DNA of 37,667 nucleotides, taken from the NCBI RefSeq assembly GCF_016900095.1, contig NZ_JACJJP010000032.1, positions 1 to 37,667 of the forward strand, written 5' to 3'. The DNA is from Gemmiger formicilis (lineage in GTDB: Bacteria > Bacillota > Clostridia > Oscillospirales > Ruminococcaceae). The position numbers and the translations under genes are program-made. Position 1 is the stretch's first letter. Every line of letters begins with the position of its first letter. Under the pieces are notes generated by a model that was not told the DNA's origin, did not search any database, and saw nothing but the letters and a program-made list of their open reading frames with translations. Shown here one piece after another: positions 19,250 to 36,395 of this stretch.

Positions 19250-19285
19250 GGTTTCGCACATCCTGATTTTTCGATAACAAGCAAC

Positions 19286-19330
19286 AACCCGGGGCCTTCC
19301 GTATTGGGAAGGCCCCGGGTTTTGTATTTT
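19286..19330 (+). terminator. Strong intrinsic terminator after the activase operon
   Basis: A 15-base perfect stem (19286-19300 with 19307-19321) closes on a 6-base loop and is followed by TTTGTATTTT. Confidence 0.93.
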
Positions 19331-19354
19331 GATGGATGATCCGGCTGCCGGGGA

Positions 19355-19522
19355 AACGGCATCTTGCCGTTGGGTTGTCGCTTTTTGCCGCCAAAAAGCG
19401 ACGGAAAAACCGCCACCGTTTCGAGGCGGTGGACGCCGACCAGGGCTGCGGCCCTGGACCCGGGGAGTGCGGCCACCTACCGACGGCCTACTCAGGCCCT
19501 GGGGGGCCTGAGCAAGGAAAAT
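19355..19522 (+). repeat. Structured dispersed repeat, copy 1
   Basis: Five successive hairpins: P1 19355-19371 (loop 3), P2 19377-19402 (11 pairs, loop CCGC), P3 19413-19432 (6 pairs, loop of 8), P4 19440-19457 (7 pairs, loop TGCG) and P5 19491-19512 (9 pairs, loop TGGG), then CAAGGAA. The linker between P4 and P5 keeps GCGGCCACC and CGACGGCCTA. No protein is supported here; the short open frames are GC artefacts. The same architecture recurs at 19601-19769 (opposite strand) and 36229-36395. Confidence 0.8.
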
Positions 19523-19600
19523 TTTTTAAAAGCCGTACGGGAAGCAGCTGGCAACCCATAGTCTGCCATTAGCAGCATCCTGCGGGCAATGGTATTAAAT

Positions 19601-19769
19601 CCATTCCTTGTTCACCGGCCCCCAGGCCGGTGAATAGGCCGTCGTCAGGTGGCCGCATCTCGGGGTCTGGGGCCGCAGCCCCAGCCGGCGGCCGCCGCAT
19701 CGGAACGGCGGGCCCTTTTCGCTTCCTTTTCGGGCACGAAAAGGAAGGACCAAACGGCTGCCAGCCGTT
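19601..19769 (-). repeat. Structured dispersed repeat, copy 2 (inverted relative to copy 1)
   Basis: Read on the minus strand, the same five hairpins appear: P1 19753-19769, P2 19722-19747 (11 pairs, loop TGCC), P3 19692-19711, P4 19667-19684 (loop TGCG) and P5 19611-19634 (10 pairs, loop TGGG), then CAAGGAATGG. Helix sequences differ from copy 1 but pairing is kept by double changes. The 78 bases between copies 1 and 2 show no gene. Confidence 0.8.
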
Positions 19770-19847
19770 CCCCGGTAAACTCCCGCCTGCCAAAAACAAG
19801 CCAACCAACCCTTCAGTGGGCTTTCTGCCGCCTGCAGCACGGGCTGC

Positions 19848-20015
19848 TCACACCTTCACCGTCCCATTCTGATAACAGTAGACCCCCTGTTCTTCGGAGC
19901 CCCCGCTCCCGCTGCCGCGGGGCAAAACGCCCCGGCCCGCCATCTGCAGCAGCAGCGCCAGGACCAGGGTGCCCGCCGCCAGAAAGGCCAGGGGCCCTAT
20001 CTTGTTTGCCTTCAT
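19848..20015 (-). CDS. Very small single-pass membrane or secreted protein (55 residues)
   Basis: The frame opens at an ATG (20015) eight bases after GAAAGGAG and ends at TGA (19848-19850). The protein starts MKANKIGPLAFLAAG, continues through a hydrophobic segment rich in Leu and Ala (about residues 7-26), and then has a Gly/Ser-rich linker and a tail ending VYCYQNGTVKV. It follows another small membrane-protein gene by 31 bases in the same direction. No family is recognised. The good ribosome binding site and the coherent hydrophobic profile are the support. Confidence 0.6.
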   Translation of the reverse strand: MKANKIGPLAFLAAGTLVLALLLQMAGRGVLPRGSGSGGSEEQGVYCYQNGTVKV

Positions 20016-36103: not shown

Positions 36104-36109
36104 TTTTTT

Positions 36110-36197
36110 GCCTCCCCTGTGTAAGGGGGGTACCGCGCCTTTTTCTCCAAGCCTCCCCTGTGTAAGGGGAGGTGCCGCGCAGCGGCGGAGGGGTTGT
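36110..36197. repeat. Two copies of a short palindromic intergenic repeat
   Basis: GCCTCCCCTGTGTAAGGGG begins at 36110 and again at 36151, each followed by GGT and CCGCGC. In the second copy CCTCCCCT pairs with AGGGGAGG around GTGTA, then GCCGC pairs with GCGGC, then GGAGGGGTTG follows. This REP-like unit is familiar to me from gut Ruminococcaceae genomes. No gene is here. Confidence 0.75.
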
Positions 36198-36228: not shown

Positions 36229-36395
36229 AACGGCTGCCTGTCGTGATATCCTTCCTTTTGTGACCAAAAGGAAGCGAAAAGTCCCACCGTTTCGATGCGG
36301 TGGACGCCGACCAGGGCTGCGGCCCTGGACCCGGGGATGCGGCCACCTTACGACGGCCTACTCAGGTCCTGGAGGACCTGAGCAAGGAATGGATT
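36229..36395 (+). repeat. Structured dispersed repeat, copy 3
   Basis: Same order of helices as copies 1 and 2: a weak P1 (36230-36244, with one G-T pair), P2 36251-36274 (10 pairs, loop TGAC), P3 36284-36303, P4 36311-36328 (loop TGCG), P5 36361-36382 (9 pairs, loop TGGA), then CAAGGAATGGATT. The P4-P5 linker is nearly identical to copies 1 and 2. No protein-coding potential is supported. Confidence 0.8.

Follow-up and report, generated by a model that had tools for sequence, protein, structure and literature searches.

Paired intergenic repeats with covarying hairpins in Gemmiger and their possible action as folded DNA

Structured repeats in the window

The window analyzed here is a stretch of 37,667 nucleotides that makes up an entire contig (C25) of a Gemmiger formicilis genome of 3.26 Mb in 98 contigs. 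It contains three copies of a structured repeat, which were matched by a covariance model at positions 19375-19517 (+), 19606-19749 (-) and 36248-36387 (+); their features are listed in Table 1. The original prediction had described five hairpins in fixed order (P1 to P5), with a conserved linker between P4 and P5. The stems of P2, P3, P4 and P5 were found as quoted in all three copies, and these four hairpins are constant, whereas P1 is a loose flanking palindrome that was not conserved among 28 copies. Conservation of the linker was borne out as well: the motif GCGGCCACC-N1..3-CGACGGCCTA occurs exactly three times in the window and in none of 100 shuffled sequences. RNA folding gave z values of -2.85, -3.8 and -5.0 for copies 1, 2 and 3, respectively. 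A small palindrome (GGCAGACGGCTGCTTGCCG-like) adjoins many units, for example as P1 at 19355-19371, and resembles a separate REP-sized family. A second dispersed palindrome family (CTCCCCTGTGTAAGGGGAGGTGCCGCGCAGCGGCGGAGGGGTTG) lies in the same intergenic spaces (window positions 36106-36195; locus L037, 5105-5345), sometimes within the spacer of a pair.

Table 1. Features of the three repeat copies in the window
Feature	Position	Strand	Basis
Copy 1 P1, variable flanking palindrome	19355..19371	+	sequence; unconserved in 28 copies
Copy 1 P2 hairpin GTCGCTTTTTG/CAAAAAGCGAC, loop CCGC	19377..19402	+	sequence, alignment
Copy 1 third-strand tract GAAAAA, mirrors top of P2 purine arm; lock imperfect	19404..19409	+	
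Copy 1 P3 hairpin CCACCG/CGGTGG	19413..19432	+	sequence, alignment
Copy 1 P4 hairpin CCAGGGC/GCCCTGG, loop TGCG	19440..19457	+	sequence, alignment
Copy 1 conserved linker GCGGCCACC-TAC-CGACGGCCTA	19469..19490	+	motif search
Copy 1 P5 hairpin, type A, CTCAGGCCC/GGGCCTGAG, then CAAGG	19491..19517	+	sequence, pair tally
Spacer between the halves, copies 1 and 2	19518..19605	.	range 72-259 nt in 47 pairs
Copy 2 P5 hairpin, type B, TTCACCGGCC/GGCCGGTGAA, with CAAGG	19606..19634	-	sequence, pair tally
Copy 2 conserved linker	19635..19656	-	motif search
Copy 2 P4 hairpin CTGGGGC/GCCCCAG	19667..19684	-	sequence, alignment
Copy 2 P3 hairpin CCGCCG/CGGCGG	19692..19711	-	sequence, alignment
Copy 2 third-strand tract GAAAAG and lock GGGC, complementary to P2-loop GCCC	19712..19720	-	
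Copy 2 P2 hairpin CTTCCTTTTCG/CGAAAAGGAAG, loop TGCC	19722..19747	-	sequence, alignment
Copy 2 P1-like flanking palindrome	19753..19769	-	sequence
Copy 3 P2 hairpin CTTCCTTTTG/CAAAAGGAAG, loop TGAC	36251..36274	+	sequence, alignment
Copy 3 third-strand tract GAAAA and lock GTC, complementary to P2-loop GAC	36276..36283	+	
Copy 3 P3 hairpin	36284..36303	+	sequence, alignment
Copy 3 P4 hairpin	36311..36328	+	sequence, alignment
Copy 3 conserved linker	36339..36360	+	motif search
Copy 3 P5 hairpin, type A, with CAAGG; partner half absent	36361..36387	+	

Size and distribution of the family

The repeats of Gemmiger, a genus of gut bacteria, are dispersed and intergenic, number dozens per genome and are about 140-150 nt long, with a fixed row of hairpins and often with convergent, mirror-image halves that do not match. 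All three copies that had been predicted are real, and copies 1 and 2 are inverted, but the family is far larger than a three-copy element: BLAST gave 44 matches in the same genome and the covariance model at least 43, with 150 of 4,229 candidates scored. The exact linker motif was found 25 times in this genome and the reversed pattern not at all. The 43 model matches fall into 28 sites, none of which overlaps a gene called by a simple gene caller.

The search of relatives and of Rfam that had been proposed for such a model was carried out. At least one model match was observed in 27 of 35 Gemmiger genomes (the present one included), and the highest counts were 69, 63, 49 and 43. When genomes were drawn evenly from the taxonomic family and stricter filters were applied, 7 of 197 matched, three of them within Gemmiger; the four outside had one match each, and in three of these four the P2-lock-P3 core was visible by eye. 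Named carriers of the exact linker motif were uncultured Gemmiger, Oscillospiraceae records and Faecalibacterium sp. UBA1360. Two of 59 linker-motif stretches (Pseudofrankia and Streptomyces), which may be chance matches, were excluded from all counts. Rfam gave no match to the whole window at the gathering cut-off and no credible match to positions 19250-19850 at a permissive E-value, and a tRNA/tmRNA search found none. In plasmids, one diverged Gemmiger copy had no match and one non-Gemmiger module gave short, weak matches only. The matches in phages were unannotated fecal records of uncertain origin.

Covariation and hairpin types

Two alignments were examined. The first (A2) comprised 28 copies from the same genome (30 loci fetched out of the 44 BLAST matches, minus two contig-end fragments; 27 distinct rows), and all of its 837 counted cells were paired, with 84 double changes and no one-sided change, a result that was not reached in any of 500 shuffles. 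Sliding the structure out of register reduced pairing to 34-51%. The outer helix GCCG/CGGC was invariant in A2 and is uninformative on covariation. The second alignment (A4), which was fitted to the model, contained the best 150 of 167 matches (135 distinct rows); 99.7% of 4,001 cells formed standard pairs, with 384 double changes and 5 one-sided ones, and its covariation score was reached by 0 of 500 shuffles. Thus, the original proposal that the stems differ while pairing is kept, and hence that structure is conserved, held in both alignments, including the large one.

The pair at the tip of P3 was an invariant T-G (133 of 133 cells in A4), which is also among the pairs counted in A2. Without it, 3,849 of 3,868 cells in A4 were Watson-Crick, the rest being G-T (5), A-C (3) and others (11). 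One-arm changes in P3 were seen in at least three halves. The stems fall into a few types, each a whole hairpin, which appear in different combinations from copy to copy. Stems of the same kind can carry a loop in either orientation, as though the loop had been inverted within an intact stem: TGAC in L001 and TCAC in L013, or ACGC in L010 and GCGT in L014, for P2, as well as the P5 loop of L021.

The P2 hairpin, its candidate third strand and the loop-tail lock

P2 consists of a pyrimidine arm, a loop and a purine arm, followed by an A-rich purine tract that mirrors the purine arm, and its loop is complementary to the bases after this tract (referred to here as the lock). This layout has the class II order of intrastrand triplexes (Y-arm, loop, R-arm, loop and R third strand, all on one strand). 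The crossing tract follows the purine arm base by base, with A at A-T and G at G-C pairs. The mirror covers 7 (one of them a C), 6 and 5 positions in the window copies and 8-9 in several relatives; the ITxF minimum is 6. Purine triplexes rich in A are considered less stable than those rich in G. RNA strands are said, by Semerad and Maher, to be excluded from purine-motif triplexes.

The stretch after P2, with its third-strand tract and lock, belongs to the structure. In A2, 96.3% of the lock cells pair, and double changes were observed in two of the three lock pairs. Diverged Gemmiger copies showed the lock pairs CACC/GGTG, CGAC/GTCG, GCAG/CTGC, GACC/GGTC, GCCC/GGGC and others. We also assembled 71 non-redundant hairpins from both strands of the collected loci, picked by the mirror tract only. 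At least four complementary lock bases were present in 29 of them, compared with a mean of 6.6 and a maximum of 16 in 2,000 loop shufflings; at least three bases were present in 50 (25.5 when shuffled), and the other 21, including copy 1 of the window, had no lock of three bases.

The mirror rule was examined in viral contigs by using the arms CTTTTCTTTG/CAAAGAAAAG and a tail pattern open to both mirror and direct repeats. Judged by eye, 7 of the 10 loci were mirror-specific, 2 fitted both, none was direct-specific and 1 fitted neither; since several of these loci are alike or lie on one contig, perhaps six are independent. Among all 356 collected hairpins, counted on both strands with chance ones included, the mirror was longer in 61 and the direct repeat in 23, while 30 were equal and 242 had none. 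Other module scans of the contigs used patterns in which the tail was more tightly specified, and they do not test the mirror rule. One such contig scan returned 74 contigs, mostly chance coding matches, in three of which the module was recognized by eye, and two further viral-contig scans returned nothing. A strict P2 pattern found nothing in 398 genomes of the phylum, which says little, as it also misses the P2 types of its own genome. The lock occurs in unrelated contigs outside Gemmiger. Non-Gemmiger contigs labelled as viral (L339-L342, L345-L354, L280 and L335) show the hairpin with the mirror purine tract, most of them with a lock, of up to seven bases (L339, by eye). In the literature, no paper was found on a loop-tail lock or on repeats of Gemmiger, none matching the sequence strings of the repeat, and none combining triplex, pseudoknot and intergenic palindromic repeats in bacterial genomes.

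Convergent halves and partner avoidance

Pairs were defined as aligned matches whose neighbors lie at most 400 nt apart (locus L186 was dropped as a repeat of L109). All 47 pairs of neighboring halves were convergent, with a spacing of 72-259 nt, and in 45 of them a P5 hairpin of type A faced one of type B (44 of 46 once an identical pair was merged). Within the present genome, 12 of the 28 sites are convergent pairs, the others being single, interrupted or at contig ends.

The 46 distinct pairs come from five related genomes (11, 1, 13, 15 and 6 pairs). Partners carried the same hairpin less often than expected from shuffling within genomes, unreadable modules being excluded: 0 of 34 for P2 (6.0 expected, P 0.0007), 4 of 42 for P3 (15.8 expected; 0 of 3,000 shuffles), 9 of 46 for P4 (14.4 expected, P 0.018) and 2 of 46 for P5 (21.6 expected; 0 of 3,000 shuffles). 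In the 44 A/B pairs, the longest run common to both partners averaged 14.9 nt, compared with 29.2 nt after shuffling. Six P2 types were found on both sides and were never matched within one pair. It should be noted that some sites are common to sister species, which makes the pairs partly dependent on one another, and that descent from one heterotypic founder pair would give part of the avoidance effect. When the window pair was folded as DNA, the halves were joined via the linker, P3 and P4, while P1, P2 and P5 stayed local; thus, partner avoidance may act to preserve the local hairpins rather than to separate the two halves.

Turnover at orthologous sites

Copy 3 has an ortholog in G016 at the same place and in the same orientation, with flanks that are 89% and 83% identical. 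The P2 and P5 hairpins of this ortholog are of another type, and a second structured repeat splits its P4. This second repeat (GCAACGCGCAGCGTTG ... GGCCGCG..CAGCGGCC ... GGTTGCTACCT) is inserted in, or replaces, P2 or P4 of several copies and was seen at about 15,670-15,810 of L251 (G016:C17), at the end of L252 and in P2 of several L180 copies. At the site of copies 1 and 2, rearranged derivatives were found in G016 and G023, and only a terminator-like hairpin before the next gene in seven of the others inspected (G034, G001, G021, G025, G026, G018 and G009). The comparison of strains for empty sites that had been called for was made between related species and revealed presence and absence at three sites: units at sites A and E occur in sister species and are absent from this genome, and the unit at site C is present in this genome and absent from sister species, with a short gap in CASEVW.

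Relation to known repeat systems

The Gemmiger repeats are a real, large and unusual family of paired repeats. They are related in layout to both the intrastrand-triplex repeats and the REP/BIME repeats; new features are the lock, the avoidance between partners and the hairpin cassettes.

Intrastrand-triplex repeats of bacteria (PIT elements or TM-ECO, class II purine motif, 37 nt) were described by Holder et al. (2015; PMC4666352). On the basis of the accessible text of that paper, the two systems have in common a pyrimidine arm, loop, purine arm, short loop and purine third strand, as well as intergenic location, many copies and variable neighborhoods. Inverted A/B pairs are also common to both (those of the E. 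coli MG1655 TM repeats always join a type A with a type B, 5 of 5), as is crowding toward the origin, which for the triplex repeats was reported in K-12, with none seen in further E. coli strains or in bacteria other than E. coli. The same text cites earlier work in which the E. coli TM repeats, with their variable surroundings, had no promoter or terminator activity, describes the single-strand triplex by CD/NMR for TM-ECO only and reports that even a G/C-rich motif gave no stable triplex in living E. coli. Unlike these elements, the Gemmiger half is A-rich, about four times longer (about 140 vs 37 nt), and has three extra hairpins, a conserved linker and a covarying loop-tail lock. The lock was missing from two of three independent E. 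coli loci that we read by eye, and the main text of PMC4666352 contains neither pseudoknot nor Gemmiger, Subdoligranulum or Faecalibacterium.

REP, BIME and REPIN elements are likewise palindromic, intergenic, mosaic and often arranged as inverted dimers, heterodimers among them (PMC3733652, in its accessible part, and general knowledge), and the convergence of all neighboring Gemmiger halves agrees with this arrangement, although single copies occur too. On the same sources, REPs measure 20-40 bp, whereas each Gemmiger half has four ordered hairpins.

Alternative explanations and the folding molecule

A REPIN-type non-autonomous mobile element, moved by a Y1 (RAYT/TnpA-REP) or another HUH transposase that recognizes hairpins, would have the inverted pairs, intergenic sites, tens of copies and presence or absence at orthologous sites observed here. 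REP/BIME palindromes carry a tetranucleotide, GTAG or CGTC, at one foot; here, 69 of 123 readable halves (134 in all) show the REP tag GTAG at the base of P5, and Y1 genes are present in this genome and in the high-copy genomes G016 and G023. However, the tag is partial when compared with REP/BIME/REPIN elements, as the 54 other readable halves carry ATAG (42), GAAG (10) or AGAG (2), and the number of copies does not follow that of Y1 genes: G018 carries 49 copies but lacks a Y1 match, whereas G026, with 8 Y1 matches, lacks the repeat. Nor was a copy present in any of the 14 Y1 loci inspected (1.5 to 8 kb each). A link to Y1 transposases was rejected on these grounds, with no cognate RAYT near the repeats or tracking them, and the kinship to IS200/IS605 that had once been suggested is not supported in the strict sense, no tnpA lying between or beside the halves in 12 pairs and the 14 Y1 loci. 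No target duplication was identified by unsystematic inspection of the sites. We consider the REPIN-type explanation quite improbable. Even less credible, and in our view barely so, is that the repeats are degenerate termini of integron cassettes or of some larger transposon. The inverted arrangement, with the spacers of 72-259 nt, would fit such ends, but the gene caller found nothing between paired halves at any of the 12 paired sites of this genome, and the halves are intact and covarying.

Compensatory changes are usually taken as proof of functional RNA, and the repeats might be structured RNA, carried as P2-P5 on read-through intergenic transcripts, with P2 as an H-type pseudoknot, that protects or processes mRNA 3' ends. 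In H-type RNA pseudoknots, a hairpin loop pairs with downstream bases and the crossing strand is A-rich, as in the lock geometry of P2. The invariant T-G at the tip of P3 would also suit an RNA, and 10 of the 24 sites for which both neighboring genes were called are flanked by convergent genes, where both converging transcripts would meet the same strand of convergent halves. On the other hand, 11 of these sites lie between co-directional and 3 between divergent genes, so that halves are frequently antisense. At each base, G positions included, the crossing tract mirrors the purine arm, which a minor-groove A-rich strand would not need, and Rfam has no match. Selection on one strand at the RNA level should favor G-T over A-C, yet besides the P3 tip there are 5 G-T against 3 A-C in 3,868 cells, which indicates no wobble tolerance; this near-absence of G-U change also sets P2 apart from H-type pseudoknots. 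Structured RNA is therefore an unlikely explanation. The original prediction had left both a non-coding RNA and a folded-DNA element in play, and REP-type folded DNA fits better, because 384 cells changed on both sides and 5 on one, G-T is about as rare as A-C, P2 has the triplex layout and the inverted pairs are heterotypic. Covariation here goes with whole-palindrome types, near-absent wobble and differing facing halves, which points to DNA.

The family most likely acts as DNA, and its probable nature, in our opinion, is that of non-coding, dispersed intergenic repeats that work as folded DNA and are paired in a BIME-like manner. A unit would consist of two convergent halves, some copies being single, and each half would be built of a triplex-type P2 with purine third strand and lock, hairpins P3 and P4, the linker and an identity hairpin P5 (A or B). 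The hairpins would fold when the strand is single, as in the lagging-strand template or in a repair or transposition intermediate. They may be swapped between copies as whole palindromes, so that both arms change together. Pairs of matching halves would be lost, because a long perfect inverted repeat forms or the halves mispair, and the survivors would be a mosaic of non-matching halves. Several observations count against this folded-DNA explanation. The invariant T-G at the P3 tip is what RNA could keep, although it may be part of a loop; the sequence of P2 and its lock can readily be taken for an A-rich RNA pseudoknot; and the scarcity of G-T may stem from recent homogenization. In addition, the A-rich third strand spans no more than 5 to 7 positions in the copies of the window, purine triplexes of this kind are considered the weaker ones, even a G/C-rich motif gave no stable triplex in E. 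coli cells, the three-base lock is missing from 21 of the 71 mirror-type hairpins, the fold of the whole pair joins the halves, and the avoidance, seen in 46 pairs of five related genomes, could reflect a founder pair kept by descent. If the explanation is true, the comparison of G-T with A-C, together with partner avoidance, would be a way to separate DNA hairpin repeats from RNA genes, and a covarying loop-tail lock would be added to the known, unexplained intrastrand-triplex repeats, with a role testable at the replication origin.

Position near the replication origin

The dnaA gene lies on contig C39, which has five model matches, and one copy (L037, 4935-5073) is located between dnaA and rpmH, flanked by motifs resembling the DnaA box (TTTCCACA, judged by eye); this copy lies within the presumed oriC. 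Those parts of C39 that align to the closed genome G034 fall within 16 kb of dnaA, and those of C16 (13.9 of 53.8 kb) 6-84 kb from it. C16 and C39 together make up 2.1% of the genome and hold 13 of the 25 exact motifs and 19 of the 43 model matches. The fetched parts of C17 and C24 did not map near dnaA, and those of C14 hardly did. In G018, 6 of 49 copies lie within the 12 kb examined around dnaA, and in G009, 4 of the 5 copies listed (six counted) are at most 12 kb from rpmH. Motif-bearing blocks of six other assemblies matched inside dnaA ±200 kb of G034 in 26 of 57 cases and inside ±20 kb in 14 of 57, whereas control blocks, a poor control as some of them hold copies, did so in 4 of 16 (±200 kb). 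Since the assemblies are related, these results indicate enrichment near dnaA and are not proof of function.

A more speculative reading, which we offer tentatively and think unlikely as it stands, is that the repeats represent an origin-linked class of bacterial DNA elements: paired units that fold as single strands, with a pseudoknot-locked triplex hairpin and interchangeable hairpin cassettes under partner avoidance, which would help to organize or time the oriC region. The window copies themselves count against a role at the origin, as they are away from dnaA, the gene beside copy 1 mapping 0.88 Mb from it in G034. If this origin-linked reading is true, the locked triplex hairpin would itself be an overlooked module of general occurrence in bacterial genomes. 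Copies close to dnaA were also noticed in several Gemmiger species at loci L179, L184, L180 and L263/L264.
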